DNA of 64,000 nt, from assembly GCA_903835255.1 (NCBI GenBank), contig CAILMI010000012.1, forward strand, positions 62,001 through 126,000, given 5' to 3'. The position numbers were made by a program, and so were the translations under genes. The stretch comes from an uncultured Verrucomicrobia subdivision 3 bacterium. Lineage in GTDB: Bacteria; Verrucomicrobiota; Verrucomicrobiia; Limisphaerales; UBA11358. This document shows, piece after piece, positions 25,983 through 46,472 of the stretch. How positions within the stretch are numbered: the first letter of the stretch is position 1; each line of letters starts with the position of its first letter. Under the pieces are notes generated by a model. That model did no database searches. It was given only the letters and a program-made list of their open reading frames with translations, and was not told where the DNA came from.

Positions 25983-27083
25983 TTAAGCCCGCCGCTCTTT
26001 GATGCTCGCCAGAATATCCGCCACGACCTCCGCCTTCGGCTTTGCGCCCTGTTGACCGCCGTGGTGCAAGCGAACGGAAACCGCGCCGGCTTCCATGTCG
26101 CGGCCGCCGATGACCAGCATGGTGTGGACGCGCAATTGTTCCGCGTTGGCAATCTTCGCCTTGAACGGCGTCGCGCTGAAGTCCGCATCCACCCGCACCA
26201 TGTTGGCGCGCAGTTCGGCCACGATGGGCTGGGCGTAGGCGATCAACGCGTCGTCGTCGTTCAGCGTGATGACGCGCACCTGATCCGGCGCGAGCCAGAG
26301 CGGGAAGTTCCCGGCGTAATGCTCGATGAGAAAACCGATGAACCGCTCATGCGTGCCGAGCGGCGCGCGATGGATGCACAACGGCGTCTTGTTCGAGTTG
26401 TCCTTGTCGCGATAGGTCAGGCCGAACTTGGCAGGCACGGCGAAGTCCACCTGGTTGGTGGCGATGGTGAATTCGCGGCCGATGGCGCTCCACACCTGCA
26501 CGTCAATCTTCGGCCCGTAGAACGCCGCCTCGTTGGCGACCTCCACGTAGTTGATGCCGGATTCGATCAACACCTTGCGCACCATGTCCTCGGTTTTCTT
26601 CCACAACTCCGGTTCGTTGACGTATTTCTTGCCGAGCCCTTCCGCCGCGTGCGTGCTGAAGCGCATCTGATATTTTTCCAGGCCGAAGATTTTGAAATAC
26701 TTCAGATACATGTCGTTGACGGCGCGGAACTCGTCGGCGAACTGCTCCTCGGTGCAATAAATGTGCGCGTCGTTCATGTTGAGCGAGCGCACGCGCATGA
26801 GGCCGAACAGCTCGCCGCTCTGTTCGTAGCGATAGCACGTGCCGTATTCCGCGAGGCGCAGCGGCAGGTCGCGGTAACTGTGCGGCTCCGCCGCAAAAAT
26901 GCGGTGATGATGCGGACAGTTCATGGCCTTGAGGTAATAACTCTCCGGCTCGCCCAGCTTTTTCAATTCCGCGCGCAACGCGGACAACTCGTTGAACGCA
27001 GCGGCCACGGGCTGCGGCGCAACGCCGGCTTTGACGGCAGCTTCAACGGCAACAAATTCTTCGTCTTTCAAAATGGCAGACAT
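25983..27083 (-). CDS. thrS: Threonyl-tRNA synthetase, C-terminal part of a split gene
   Basis: Contains the rest of the class II catalytic core and the anticodon-binding domain. The three zinc ligands of E. coli ThrRS have counterparts here: Cys in AMNCPHHH, His in NDAHIYCTEE and His in CIHRAPLGTHERFIG. Motif 2 (YGTCYRYEQSGELFGLMRVR) is intact, and the anticodon domain (VRVITL to the end) is complete. The most likely start is the ATG at 27083 (366 residues); the frame stays open to a TTG at 27197, adding about 38 residues that look like repeat-derived sequence. Before YYLKAMNCP lies a helical stretch (NELSALRAELKKLG). The N-terminal part is at 30676-31674, beyond a restriction-modification island. 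No frameshift or stop is seen. Confidence 0.9.
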   Translation of the reverse strand: MSAILKDEEFVAVEAAVKAGVAPQPVAAAFNELSALRAELKKLGEPESYYLKAMNCPHHHRIFAAEPHSYRDLPLRLAEYGTCYRYEQSGELFGLMRVRSLNMNDAHIYCTEEQFADEFRAVNDMYLKYFKIFGLEKYQMRFSTHAAEGLGKKYVNEPELWKKTEDMVRKVLIESGINYVEVANEAAFYGPKIDVQVWSAIGREFTIATNQVDFAVPAKFGLTYRDKDNSNKTPLCIHRAPLGTHERFIGFLIEHYAGNFPLWLAPDQVRVITLNDDDALIAYAQPIVAELRANMVRVDADFSATPFKAKIANAEQLRVHTMLVIGGRDMEAGAVSVRLHHGGQQGAKPKAEVVADILASIKERRA

Positions 27084-27173
27084 GCCGGAGAAAATAGCCG
27101 TTTGCAGTGCGCGAAGGAACTTCAATTTTTCGGCAGGCCGAAATGCCGACCAGAAGCACGTTTTGGAGCAGCC

Positions 27174-27225
27174 GTAGTTTAGCTGCGTGGAAAGCAATTG
27201 GCCGTTGTGGTAGTTAAACTGCGTG
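27174..27225 (+). promoter_or_regulatory. Tandem 16-bp boxes upstream of the C-like regulator gene
   Basis: GTAGTTTAGCTGCGTG (27174-27189) and GTAGTTAAACTGCGTG (27210-27225) match at 14 of 16 positions and start 36 bp apart in the same orientation. The core AGTT-A-AACT of the second copy is a perfect palindrome around one base, as expected for a dimeric XRE operator. It touches the regulator's GTG start (27223), so the transcript would be leaderless, as known for several C genes. The same 13-mer recurs in front of the methyltransferase gene. Confidence 0.6.
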
Positions 27226-27441
27226 CTTCAACGAAAACTCGGCCAACAAATCGCCAGCCTCCGCAAAGCAAGAAAGCTCACCCAAGAGCAGCTTGCCGAG
27301 GCCATCGGATGTTCGGTTGAGTTCATCAGCCTCGTCGAACGTGGAGTGAATGCGCCATCGGTCGCCGGTTTGGAGAAGTTTGCCAAGATTCTAAAGACCG
27401 AGGTGAAGGAACTGTTCAACTTTGAGGACAAGAAGCGATGA
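27223..27441 (+). CDS. XRE-family regulator, probable restriction-modification controller (C) protein
   Basis: 72 residues, one helix-turn-helix domain filling the protein. LGQQIASLRKARKLTQEQLAEAIGCSVEFISLVERGVNAPSV is a canonical XRE fold of the size of C proteins, which delay endonuclease expression after an R-M system enters a cell. The start is GTG at 27223, directly at the end of a quasi-palindromic box. Its TGA overlaps the next gene's ATG (27438-27441), so it is coupled to the nuclease genes. The role is inferred from size, order and the shared boxes. Confidence 0.85.
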   Translation: MLQRKLGQQIASLRKARKLTQEQLAEAIGCSVEFISLVERGVNAPSVAGLEKFAKILKTEVKELFNFEDKKR

Positions 27442-28091
27442 GCAGCTTGTCTTTTAAGAAAGTTGCAGCTTGTTGCCAAAAGATCCGCACTTCGCTGAAC
27501 ACGCTTTGTGATGGCCTTGGGCCAATTCAAATTGGCAGCGTTGAACAATTTCCAAATGGCTGGGGAAAAGCGGCAAAGGGCCGCACCGTATGGCGCATTG
27601 TTGAAGAAGCCATCAATCAGAATCTTAAGAAGGAGTCTGAAAATCTTGGAGTTGATGAAGTGACACCTTCCGAATCTGAATCGAGCATTTATGATGTTTC
27701 GCTTCGCGTTTCCAGTGTAGAAACCAAGTTTTTTCTTAATTTTAAGGCTGCGGTCGAGGGTAACGAAACGGAGAAGGGAGACATTTCGAAAGCGAGGAAG
27801 CTCGTTGAGTTTTATGATGAGGGGGCAACAAGGCAGTTATTGATAGTGACATTTGTCATTAGCTTTCACGACGACATGACGATTCAAATTAGGCGGTGTC
27901 TCGTCACACCGATTGCGTGGCTGCCTGACATTTATGTGAACCCGAGTAACAACGGAAATCTACAATGCAGCCAGCTAGAAAATTTGGAAGACGCAACCCG
28001 AAGAAGTAATAAGAGGTTTTTAAAATTGCTGAAACGCGCCATTTCAACCGCCAAAAGAAAACAGGCCGCTAAACGGGGGGAAAAGCAGTAA
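27438..28091 (+). CDS. Predicted PD-(D/E)XK-like protein of the R-M island, possibly a restriction endonuclease
   Basis: 217 residues. The segment around YDVSL (Asp86) followed by FFLNFKAAV (Asn101-x-Lys103) has the hydrophobic-strand pattern of a PD-(D/E)XK nuclease core with Asn in place of the acidic residue. DISKARKLVEFY and MPIAWLPDIYVNPSNNGNLQ-like sequence (here TPIAWLPDIYVNPSNNGNL) recall type II restriction enzymes. The end is highly basic (KRKQAAKRGEKQ). It is co-transcribed between the C gene and the AccI-type endonuclease gene. Having two nuclease-like genes for one methyltransferase is unusual. It might be a second endonuclease sharing the methyltransferase specificity, an inactive subunit, or a remnant. 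I do not recognise a named family with certainty. Confidence 0.6.
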   Translation: MSSLSFKKVAACCQKIRTSLNTLCDGLGPIQIGSVEQFPNGWGKAAKGRTVWRIVEEAINQNLKKESENLGVDEVTPSESESSIYDVSLRVSSVETKFFLNFKAAVEGNETEKGDISKARKLVEFYDEGATRQLLIVTFVISFHDDMTIQIRRCLVTPIAWLPDIYVNPSNNGNLQCSQLENLEDATRRSNKRFLKLLKRAISTAKRKQAAKRGEKQ

Positions 28092-28113
28092 TCAAAACAA
28101 AGCTATAATCTCA

Positions 28114-29013
28114 ATGGCTTCATCCCATATCCAACAATTGCAGTCCACCCTTGAGGAAGTCGTTGCCGTATTGACGGCCAAAGGTATTCAGCCTCAGCGC
28201 CTCAACTTTGGTGGCGAAGGTCCTGCACCAACACAAAAACCGAGAGTGCCAACGGACGCGCGTTCCGAGTTTCTCGCCAATCGCGCAATGGGTGATTGGG
28301 CGGAACGAATGTTGAGTGCAGCAATTGTCTCTGCGCTGCCGGAATGGAAGGTTGTGCAATATGGCAACACCGACACCATTGCAGCCGGACATCCTGAGTT
28401 CAAAGCTCGTTACCTTGCTGGTTTGGAGGAGACGCGACTATTTGGCAAACGCCCGGACTTGCTTGTGTTTCCAAAATCCTTCGCCGTGAACAGCAACTTG
28501 TCGGAACTCCGGCACACGGAAATTGAATCTCTGGTCAAACAAGCCTCGGCAGCCGTCGAAGTGCGCTCCAGCAAGTTTGAAGCTTTGAAATACATGGCCG
28601 TGCGACAAAAGCAGCGTGATGACGGCGAAAAGGGCGGACGTGAAACGCCAAGCTTCACGGTCAAAGTCGAAGACCTTGTCATCGTTTATCGCTGGCTGGA
28701 ACGTCATCGCGTGTCACAGAGTTATTGCCAAGTCTTCTTCGACTCGGTTTTTGCCATTAACTTCTTGGATATTTTTGCGACGATTGCCAGCGGGGAAGGT
28801 TTTTCGATCGAGACACCTGCGAAGAGCCAGGAGAAGGCGACCATCATGATTCCGATCACCTGTGGCATTCAGGTGGGAAAAGCTACCGGCCTTCCAACAT
28901 TCGCAGCCGAACATCACGTCACGAAACTGGGACGGCATGATGCCTACGTTGTCCCACAGGGCGGCGGATTTGAACTCGATGCGGCGGCAATTAAACAGGT
29001 TCTGCTGCCTTGA
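28114..29013 (+). CDS. Type II restriction endonuclease, AccI family
   Basis: 299 residues. KRPDLLVF (Pro114-Asp115) and, 33 residues on, AAVEVRSSKFEALKYM (Glu149) form the nuclease centre. Downstream, ETPSFTVKVEDLVIVYRWLERH and QSYCQVFFDSVFAINFLDIF are the stretches I associate with AccI-type endonucleases, whose prototype cuts GT^MKAC. If the specificity is conserved, the target would be the same, but that is an assumption. It lies 22 bp after the preceding gene and converges with the methyltransferase gene, overlapping its 3' end by 23 bp (28991-29013). Confidence 0.8.
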   Translation: MASSHIQQLQSTLEEVVAVLTAKGIQPQRLNFGGEGPAPTQKPRVPTDARSEFLANRAMGDWAERMLSAAIVSALPEWKVVQYGNTDTIAAGHPEFKARYLAGLEETRLFGKRPDLLVFPKSFAVNSNLSELRHTEIESLVKQASAAVEVRSSKFEALKYMAVRQKQRDDGEKGGRETPSFTVKVEDLVIVYRWLERHRVSQSYCQVFFDSVFAINFLDIFATIASGEGFSIETPAKSQEKATIMIPITCGIQVGKATGLPTFAAEHHVTKLGRHDAYVVPQGGGFELDAAAIKQVLLP

Positions 29014-30631
29014 TGTCAAAGTAGCTCACGGCGAGTTCGTCGATGCCCGCCAGTTGTTCGGGTGAGGAAAGCTTTTCCAAAGCTGCCAGTTTTTCGACAA
29101 GCTCAGCCGATTCTTCCTGACTCAGCCTTGTCATCGCCGGACACGGCATTTCTTCCACATCCTTGGGTTCAAGTTTGTTGAGTCCGTTTCCGTAAAACCG
29201 GTTTACCATCGAAAACGAACGGCTTCCGCCGGAACTGTTGAGAAACAGAGTCATCAGCGGGGAGATGGACTCCCAACCCGGTTTGGCGTAAAGGCCGTGG
29301 AAGCACGTCAGATTCTTTGCGCCCGAAGTGTTGAGGATATATTTGACGGAAGCGCGCGAAAACACGGCGACCCAAATGTCAGCAGCAGCGCGGTTTTCTG
29401 GAAGATACCAAACGGGCCGATGGCTTGGCAGATGCCGCTGCGGGATGCCTTGCTGCTCGCCAAGTTTCAAGTAACGCATCAAGTCTTGCCCGTTGCGTGA
29501 AGGATTCAACAGAAAGCATCGGCGCTCGCGGGCCGCCAATGAATCAAATTTGTCAGGGGTGAAAACGAGTCCGTCCGCATCAACGGCCTTGGTGATACAC
29601 GGCTCAACATGAGCTTCCGTCAAATGATGCTCGCGGATGTCGGCTCGGCTAAAACAAAAAAAGTCGTTTGCTCCGGTGGCAATGCCGCGACGACAATTGA
29701 AATAGTCACCAACCCGATTCGACAACGCATCTGAACCGGTTGGCCTCTCACCATTAAACAAAAGATTAAGCCACTTGGTGCAAGGCTGTAGTTTTTTCAG
29801 GTCAACACAGCCATCACCTGCGCACGTCGCTGCCTCCGAAAGCAACCCGTTCAAGAAATGCGATGCGTCCTCAATTGAGTCCACTCTCTTAACCCAACAT
29901 GGCAATTTTGGTGAACGGCTTTTTTCCAGAAACACAATTGCGCTGGTGGTGAGCGCATCCTCGAAAATGTTTAGCGACGGCGCGAAAACGGTAATCGCCA
30001 CAGGCCGAATTATCCGCACAAGCTGCTCCTTGATTTCTTCGCCAAAATTCGCGTTCAGAAATTCGGCCGGCAGAATGACAGCGGCGCGACCGTGTGGCGC
30101 AAGGTCTTCCCAAATCTTCAGCAGGAACAACGCGTAGATATTTGTAAGGCGATCCAAAGGAGTGCCGAATCGTTCCTCGAAATAGCACCAATCCTTTTCG
30201 GAATAATCCAGTCGTTGGGATTTTACATACGGCGGGTTGGCAATAATTCCATCAAACTGGCCGGCATCAGATTTGAGATAATCTGCCAGAATCAGCTTTG
30301 TCCCGCTGGGCGCAGCGGTTTTTGCGCGCTGCAATGTTTCAATGTCGCGTTCAACGCCAATCAGAACCGTTTGCTTTTGGAACTTCCGGCAGGCAGCCAA
30401 CAAACCGCCCAAGCCCGCAGCCGGATCAAGCACAGCAGCAGGTCTTGCCGACATCACCCACTTTGCCATCAAGTCTGCAATCGGTTCAGGCGTTGCCACC
30501 TGACCAAACTGCTTGGTATTGCGCTCCCAGTTCTCGGCAGAAAGGAATGAGTCCGCTTCGCCAGTGGCAAATTCCACTGAATTCGGATCGAAATACAGCG
30601 ACATGAAAGTTTGATTGTCGCGCAGCTTCAT
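28991..30631 (-). CDS. Type II N6-adenine DNA methyltransferase
   Basis: Start ATG at 30631 (MKLRDNQTFMSLYFD), 546 residues; a TTG two codons upstream is in frame. TPEPIADLMAKWV leads into motif I (VLDPAAGLGGLLAACRK), and the catalytic motif is NPPY (132-135, in IIANPPYVKS), which marks adenine-N6 methylation in a TaqI-like (gamma) arrangement. The C-terminal half is the target recognition region. It protects host sites against the neighbouring endonuclease. It is transcribed toward the nuclease genes from its own promoter (30639-30667), which contains the box shared with the regulator gene. Confidence 0.92.
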   Translation of the reverse strand: MKLRDNQTFMSLYFDPNSVEFATGEADSFLSAENWERNTKQFGQVATPEPIADLMAKWVMSARPAAVLDPAAGLGGLLAACRKFQKQTVLIGVERDIETLQRAKTAAPSGTKLILADYLKSDAGQFDGIIANPPYVKSQRLDYSEKDWCYFEERFGTPLDRLTNIYALFLLKIWEDLAPHGRAAVILPAEFLNANFGEEIKEQLVRIIRPVAITVFAPSLNIFEDALTTSAIVFLEKSRSPKLPCWVKRVDSIEDASHFLNGLLSEAATCAGDGCVDLKKLQPCTKWLNLLFNGERPTGSDALSNRVGDYFNCRRGIATGANDFFCFSRADIREHHLTEAHVEPCITKAVDADGLVFTPDKFDSLAARERRCFLLNPSRNGQDLMRYLKLGEQQGIPQRHLPSHRPVWYLPENRAAADIWVAVFSRASVKYILNTSGAKNLTCFHGLYAKPGWESISPLMTLFLNSSGGSRSFSMVNRFYGNGLNKLEPKDVEEMPCPAMTRLSQEESAELVEKLAALEKLSSPEQLAGIDELAVSYFDIKAAEPV

Positions 30632-30638
30632 CGCCAAA

Positions 30639-30667
30639 AATATGCCAGCAGTTTAACTACGGGTCAA
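30639..30667 (-). promoter_or_regulatory. Methyltransferase promoter with C-box-like element in the spacer
   Basis: On the minus strand TTGACC (30667-30662) is followed after 17 bp by CATATT (30644-30639), and the ATG comes seven bases later. The spacer holds GTAGTTAAACTGC (30660-30648), identical to the box before the regulator gene. A protein bound there would block RNA polymerase, the known way C proteins repress methyltransferase genes. The message would be nearly leaderless. Confidence 0.6.
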
Positions 30668-30675
30668 TTGGAATC

Positions 30676-31674
30676 TCATTTTCCAGAATTCGTGGTGTGG
30701 TCGCCAGTTTTCTTCGCGTAATCGGCCAGTTGTTTTTCCAGTTCGGCGATGCGGGCTTCAAGTTTCTGGCGGTCGGCGCGGTGTTCATCCATTTCCATTT
30801 TCGGAAACATCGACTCCGCGTAATACGGCAGGTGGCCGGAGGTTTTATACATTTTCTCCTTGGCCAGATGCGGCGTGCGGACGCGCACGTAGCCCGCCGC
30901 GAATTCGGTTTCCTTGGCCAGCTTCTCCAGTTCCTCGACCAGCACCGTGCCCTTGGGCAGCCACAGCGGCATGCCCGGCCCGACAAATTCCGTGTCAATC
31001 GCGAACAGCCCCATCTCCGCGCCGATTTTGCGATGGTCGCGGCGCTTGGCCTCCTCGATCATCTTGAAGTACTCGTCCATGGCGGTCTTGTTCTTGAACG
31101 CCGTGCCGTAAATGCGCTGAAGCTGCGGACCTTTTTCGTCGCCCTTGTAATACGCGGCGGCCACGCTGGTGAGCTTGAACGCACCGATGTTGCCCGTGCG
31201 CATCACGTGCGGCCCGGCGCACAGGTCAACGAAATCACCGTTCTTAAAATAGGAGATCGGTTCGCTCTCGGGAATCTGCTTGAGCAAATCCAGCTTGAAC
31301 TTCGAGGCGTTGCCGGGCCGCTCACCGAGTCCGCCCAGCCGTCCGCTCTCCGCGTCTTTGATCGCCTGCTCGCGGGTGACTTCGCTCTTCTCGAAGACGT
31401 TGTTCGCCTTGATCTCCTTCTTCATCTCCGCCTCGATCTTTTCAAAATCTTCCGGCGAGATACGGTGGGAGCATTCGAGGTCGTAGTAGAAGCCGTTCTC
31501 GACGGGCGGGCCGTAGGCGAACTGGGCGTCGGGCCAGAGGCGCAGGATAGCGGTGGCCATGACATGGGCGCAGGAGTGCCGGAGGCGCTCCTGCTCGGTC
31601 ATCTTCGCGCGGTCGTCGAGGGTTTTGCGTTCGGGATTGGGTGCCGCCGGCGACGGGGATTGTTCTTCAGCCAT
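30676..31674 (-). CDS. thrS: Threonyl-tRNA synthetase, N-terminal part of a split gene
   Basis: 332 residues ending in TGA a few bases before the R-M island. HSCAHVMA (His33, His37) and DLCAGPH are the editing-domain motifs that remove mischarged serine. GLFAIDTEFVGPGMPLWLPKGTVL opens the class II catalytic domain, which stops after AKEKMYKTSGHLPYYAESMFPKMEMDEH. The usual TGS domain at the N-terminus is missing. After that point comes a helical, heptad-like tail (RQKLEARIAELEKQLADYAKK) that ordinary ThrRS lacks here; its counterpart helix begins the C-terminal part at 25983-27083. The catalytic domain is thus divided between two ORFs. Confidence 0.9.
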   Translation of the reverse strand: MAEEQSPSPAAPNPERKTLDDRAKMTEQERLRHSCAHVMATAILRLWPDAQFAYGPPVENGFYYDLECSHRISPEDFEKIEAEMKKEIKANNVFEKSEVTREQAIKDAESGRLGGLGERPGNASKFKLDLLKQIPESEPISYFKNGDFVDLCAGPHVMRTGNIGAFKLTSVAAAYYKGDEKGPQLQRIYGTAFKNKTAMDEYFKMIEEAKRRDHRKIGAEMGLFAIDTEFVGPGMPLWLPKGTVLVEELEKLAKETEFAAGYVRVRTPHLAKEKMYKTSGHLPYYAESMFPKMEMDEHRADRQKLEARIAELEKQLADYAKKTGDHTTNSGK

Positions 31675-46076: not shown

Positions 46077-46472
46077 GGTTTTGGAAGGGCTGTAAGCCGA
46101 ATTCTGTCTGCGTTCTTGCGAACGGAGAGAATCATTTGTCTGAGCGACCGATACCCGAAACCTGTTTCGCTTTCACGAAACCCGGAGCGGACAACTCCTC
46201 GGTTTCCTATTTGGCCTTGCACCCGATGGGGTTTTCCGTGCCGCGTTGCTTGCGCTTCGCGCGGTGGTCTCTTACACCACCTTTTCACCCTTACCGCCTC
46301 AAACAGACGGCGGCGGTCTTATTTTCTGTGGCACTTTCCGTCGGAACGTCTTTCAACTTTCCTCCCGCGTGTATCTCCGGCCGAACCGGAGTTACGCGGC
46401 ATCACGCCCTGCGGTGTTCGGACTTTCCTCCCCCCGCTTGCGCCGGGAGCGATTCTCCGCCCTTCCAAAACC
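46077..46472 (-). ncRNA. rnpB: RNase P RNA (bacterial class A)
   Basis: Transcribed on the minus strand from about 46472. The 5' part GGTTTTGGAAGGGC pairs with the 3' part GCCCTTCCAAAACC (46090-46077), forming helix P1. The conserved core is present: GAGGAAAGTCCGAACACC near the 5' end, GGGTAAGGGTGAAAAGGTGG in the middle, and GACAGAATTCGGCTTACAG before the 3' end. The length, about 396 nt, is normal. It makes the catalytic RNA that trims tRNA 5' leaders. Open frames crossing it on the plus strand are spurious. The ends are set by P1 pairing and may be off by a few bases. Confidence 0.96.

Follow-up and report, generated by a model that had tools for sequence, protein, structure and literature searches.

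The stretch of DNA analysed here (the window, 64,000 nucleotides) comes from an uncultured Verrucomicrobia subdivision 3 bacterium and carries a restriction-modification (R-M) island that interrupts thrS, the only threonyl-tRNA synthetase (ThrRS) gene of the genome, a point absent from the initial annotation of this DNA. The island opens with the gene of a 72-residue XRE/C-protein-like regulator (27223..27441, + strand), which begins with GTG (ATG in some homologs) and whose product matches HTH_3 (E 2.4e-12), the PADLOC Control_protein model (E 6e-9) and the structures of C.AhdI (1y7y, E 2.6e-5) and C.BclI. Further along lies an AccI-like restriction endonuclease (REase) gene (28114..29013, +; Pfam RE_AccI PF09545, E 7e-43; PADLOC REase_II), and convergent with it is the gene of an adenine-specific (N6) DNA methyltransferase (MTase; 28991..30631, -; N6_Mtase/Eco57I; PADLOC MTase_II, E 7e-71), for which the ATG at 30631, conserved at other loci, is preferred over the TTG at 30637 of the listed open reading frame (ORF). 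A RE_AccI-family REase with an adjacent N6-adenine MTase is the composition of an AccI-type R-M system, although the likeness to the AccI system itself holds at the family level of the REase only. As in C-protein R-M systems, the regulator is a small helix-turn-helix protein encoded next to the REase and in the same direction, and conserved palindromic boxes lie upstream of its gene and at the MTase promoter.

Between regulator and REase, the window copy of the system, and no other copy, has an ORF of 217 codons (27438..28091, +). Family searches gave no match for its product apart from a single weak one to R.SwaI (E 0.86), its fold model was unusable (pLDDT 43), and neither the homologous R-M systems nor 288 further genomes from the phylum contain it, with no homologs found in the viral contigs or plasmids searched. 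In the related genome G006 the stop codon of the regulator overlaps the start of the REase gene, a coupling whose place is occupied in the window by the 217-residue ORF.

The two halves of thrS flank the island on the minus strand. The N-terminal half (30676..31674), which runs from the editing domain to motif 1 and covers positions 1-256 of TIGR00418, ends in a helical tail, KMEMDEHRADR...IAELEKQLADYAKK, followed by a stop codon, and the same tail and stop occur in other split genomes. The C-terminal half (25983..27083), from motif 2 onward and including the anticodon-binding domain (TIGR00418 256-561), has its own start (MSAILKDEEF...) and is preceded by a conserved promoter-like segment (27084..27130, -; ...GGCTATTTTCTCCGNCATG) that is 88% identical to a segment common to other split genomes, in which the head of this half is conserved as well. 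Alignment with solved ThrRS structures places the break between GHLPYYAESMFP and YYLKAMNCP, a point that we take to lie after motif 1 and before motif 2 in the catalytic domain. No full-length thrS was found in this 97%-complete genome, where the only matches were the two halves and, beyond these, weak ones to paralogous synthetases. Two ORFs, both under selection, together cover the enzyme where no intact copy exists, as in a split synthetase, and the two halves presumably assemble into one working enzyme. The leucyl-tRNA synthetase of Aquifex aeolicus is similarly encoded as two polypeptides and is broken in an insertion region, as opposed to the ThrRS described here, which is broken between motif 1 and motif 2 and has unrelated genes between its halves.

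The same split of thrS has been found in at least 11 other genomes from two orders, and so in at least 12 with the window genome, mostly with different cargo. Both the N-half tail (KMEMDEHRADR..IE.RIAELEKQL.. and a stop) and a related C-half head (..AVKAGVAPQPVAAAFNELSALRAELKKLGEPES) are seen in G006, G009, G013 (whose halves are on two contigs), G019, G028, G002, G289, G056, G064 and, from another order, G611; G116 was counted from its two halves, which are 3.5 kb apart. Parts of the split arrangement are also present in G038 and G301. Among the cargo genes that separate the halves are a DNA methylase (G028), AbiGi-like and deacetylase-like genes (G019), DUF3800 (G013) and PRiA4_ORF3 (G002). 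In G006, the arrangement is that of the window and is colinear with it over about 12 kb, and divergence at fourfold sites between the two is 0.38-0.43 for the R-M genes and 0.25-0.32 for the thrS halves; this similar or slightly higher divergence of the R-M genes suggests that the island is a long-term resident of thrS. Both halves are under purifying selection, with a median pN/pS of 0.10-0.13 for split halves, no higher than the 0.16-0.20 of one-piece genes.

An alternative is that the split thrS is a pseudogene or an assembly artefact and that tRNA-Thr is charged by another enzyme, a concern raised by the fact that most of the genomes are metagenome assemblies, many of whose contigs end inside thrS. 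This is very unlikely, as the same split, with the same tail and stop codon and the same C-head, recurs in the other genomes listed above, mostly with the two halves together on a contig, purifying selection acts on both halves, and the window genome offers no other thrS-family match than the weak paralogous ones. The picture is of an essential synthetase gene broken within its catalytic domain and separated into halves by R-M systems or unrelated genes, and no earlier report of a split ThrRS or of a thrS hot spot was found in the literature searched, which gives partial coverage. If the halves do assemble, ThrRS would be an enzyme split by nature, and the locus a case, open to direct testing, in which an essential gene holds mobile genes in place.

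Three putative operators lie near the edges of the island. Box 1 (GTAGTTTAGCTGC; 27174..27186, +), the distal one of the regulator gene, spans -49 to -37 from the start codon, a position kept in nearly all homologous systems; box 2 (GTAGTTAAACTGC; 27210..27222, +), the proximal one, adjoins the start codon of the regulator and is likewise kept; and the MTase box (GTAGTTAAACTGC; 30648..30660, -) sits inside the -35/-10 spacer of the MTase promoter. This promoter (TTGACC-N17-CATATT, with TG before the -10; 30639..30667, -), recognised by sequence match, is the only sigma70-like match between 27000 and 30800, and the region between the two regulator boxes has no recognisable consensus promoter. 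The initial annotation had described identical quasi-palindromes at 27210-27222 (+) and 30660-30648 (-), a near copy ahead of the first, and a gene directly after each full copy, and all of this was borne out: both full boxes have 0 mismatches to GTAGTTAAACTGC, the near copy GTAGTTTAGCTGC lies 36 bp upstream of box 2 (start to start), and the genes that follow begin at GTG 27223 (regulator) and ATG 30631 (MTase).

The two full boxes are not due to chance, because the exact degenerate consensus GTAGTTWAACTRC is found at these two sites only in the whole 3.17-Mb genome; when up to three mismatches are allowed, the window has 9 matches to the box against a mean of 5.1 in shuffled sequence, which is the level of chance. 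It had also been claimed that CAATTG outside both copies was a sign of terminal repeats, and this did not hold, as the window has 19 copies of the motif where 25 are expected. One occurrence (27195-27200) lies between the two regulator boxes and another (30665-30670) overlaps the -35 element of the MTase promoter, neither being conserved across homologous systems, and CAATTG was rejected as an outer repeat on both counts.

The comparison with homologous R-M islands that the initial annotation had proposed has now been made. REase homologs are present in 13 other genomes of the order and at 17 loci of a species-level collection, two sets that overlap, and the operators of about 15 homologous XRE/AccI-like-REase/MTase systems, located at unrelated loci, were compared. 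Among the closer systems (L092-L097, L099-L103, L107, L108 and others), a box ends immediately before the GTG or ATG of the regulator; a second box lies exactly 36 bp upstream of the proximal one in nearly all systems; and, wherever the MTase promoter is present, a third follows directly after TTGAC, as in the -35/-10 spacer. The regulator boxes are conserved while the N23 stretch separating box 1 from box 2 is divergent, all three boxes of the L099-L103 subgroup end 3' in CTCC as opposed to CTGC, and the recognition-helix region of the regulator is almost invariant. In a few distant members (L082, L098, L105 and L106) no box can be recognised at these positions. Apart from the window and G006 (L040/L092) systems, which sit in thrS, the systems have unrelated flanks, and the boxes thus keep their spacing wherever the genes are found. 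Since they accompany these genes while other thrS islands lack them, their reading as operators of the C-protein-like regulator is strongly supported by sequence comparison, which gives an AccI-like controlled R-M family a well-conserved set of operators and settles the ambiguity between operator and terminal repeat. The outermost position of the boxes has a simple explanation in that the REase and MTase genes are convergent and nothing past their promoters needs conserving.

The initial annotation had suggested that the operators double as recombination ends. The operator part of this suggestion stands, given the fixed spacing at unrelated loci with unrelated flanks, and occasional recombination between inverted boxes would be compatible with the data; the dual role as such is nonetheless highly improbable, as every objection to terminal repeats applies to it, repeats of 13 bp offer little length for homologous recombination, and none of the copies showed the island inverted or excised. 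That the boxes are instead terminal inverted repeats of a mobile unit, serving as its recombination ends, is the least credible reading and is already largely refuted, for although they are inverted and placed at the island's outer edges, and the conserved sequence of the module stops near them in all copies, the two sides are unequal (two boxes against one) with the MTase box internal to a promoter, target-site duplications beside the boxes were rejected as not above the cross-locus control at 13 loci, neither junction-marking repeats with target-site duplication nor a recombinase among the island genes, the marks of a transposon, were found, thrS islands with other cargo (G009, G056, G019, G028, G002, G038 and G013) lack boxes at their junctions, and the G006 locus, colinear and diverged about as far as thrS itself, points to long residence.

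It is therefore the operator reading that is developed here, and it is very probable that all three boxes bind the 72-residue XRE regulator of the island and that the island is parked in the ThrRS linker between separately expressed halves. Both the binding of the regulator and the sign of each of its effects are what we infer from the DNA. A regulator dimer on the MTase box, within the -35/-10 spacer, would block RNA polymerase and so limit the MTase, and regulator bound at box 2 would keep its own transcript, apparently a leaderless one, from being started, resulting in autorepression. Box 1, centred at about -43 from the start codon, would be in an activator-like position; its cooperation with box 2 is uncertain because a spacing of 36 bp does not correspond to an integral number of helical turns. 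On entry of the island into a cell, the MTase would be made first, and as the regulator builds up, the MTase would be throttled and the REase operon tuned.

Several of these features have been described in other C-protein systems, where leaderless C transcripts are common (PMC4824078) and both repression of the MTase and combined activation and repression are known (PMC4824078; PMC6237814). Like the C.PvuII, C.AhdI, C.Esp1396I and C.EcoRV types, the island combines a small XRE/HTH regulator and the REase in one operon and has quasi-palindromic boxes before the regulator gene, and, as in Esp1396I, before the MTase gene as well. The boxes themselves are different, GTAGTT-W-AACTnC as opposed to GACT-tat-AGTC or CTAAG-N5-CTTAG, and, unlike in those systems, the regulator boxes are 36 bp apart, unconserved between them, with the proximal one adjoining the start codon. 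The motif was compared with the PvuII-like and EcoO109I-like boxes given in PMC4824078 and is unlike both; its novelty cannot be claimed with certainty. In the Kpn2I system, the binding site of C.Kpn2I coincides with the very beginning of the regulator gene, which points to a roadblock or a block of initiation, and C.Kpn2I represses the MTase promoter (PMC6237814). This is like box 2 of the island, which adjoins the start of the regulator gene, while the motif is different, the MTase box is placed within the -35/-10 spacer, and the regulator and MTase promoters do not overlap.

Relatives with a one-piece thrS have a hypervariable segment of 17-243 residues between the same two flanks (L012-L035, L065-L075, L117-L150). 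From one species to another it mostly cannot be aligned, even at 94-96% identity of the C-terminal halves, and three unrelated linker types are found among G001, G018, G027 and G279. A linker that is unalignable between such similar flanks raises the question of what drives its change. In trees, which are poorly resolved, split and one-piece genomes are interspersed, with six changes between states in each tree, so that the split may or may not have had a single origin. The possibility that the C-half travels with islands apart from the N-half was not supported, as divergence at fourfold sites differs strongly between the two halves in none of 190 pairs, and the halves show no strong mosaic signal.

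Remnants of thrS are found in series at several loci. The G009 island contains a series of N-tail remnants, and in G001 (L041, C9:113001-133000) at least five decaying 3' thrS fragments, separated by unrelated genes, follow one another over ~17 kb downstream of an intact gene; these serial remnants show that the locus is repeatedly rearranged. At L038 (6058-7587) and L143, the cargo genes of the split locus have serial copies of the N-half tail with its stop codon between them, joined at L143 by a C-head remnant. At L054, L055, L139 and L140 there are copies of the start of the C-half gene, with its promoter and 30-50 codons, at a distance from an intact C-half, the copy in G285 (L139) being directly upstream of a thrS N-half.

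For the history of the locus, we tentatively propose, as a possibility rather than an expectation, that the linker between motifs 1 and 2 is a tolerated break in these Verrucomicrobia, that the enzyme acts as two polypeptides joined by helical tails, and that the gap serves as a recurrent dock for foreign genes, including defence genes, which cannot be cleanly lost without harming an essential gene, with split and one-piece alleles and hypervariable linkers being swapped between lineages.

Two further observations concern the window as a whole. The AccI-type site GTMKAC occurs 9 times against 16.6 expected, a deficit that comes mostly from GTCGAC (2 against 10.4) and is a weak hint of site avoidance. 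A gene for bacterial RNase P class A RNA lies at 46077-46468 (-).
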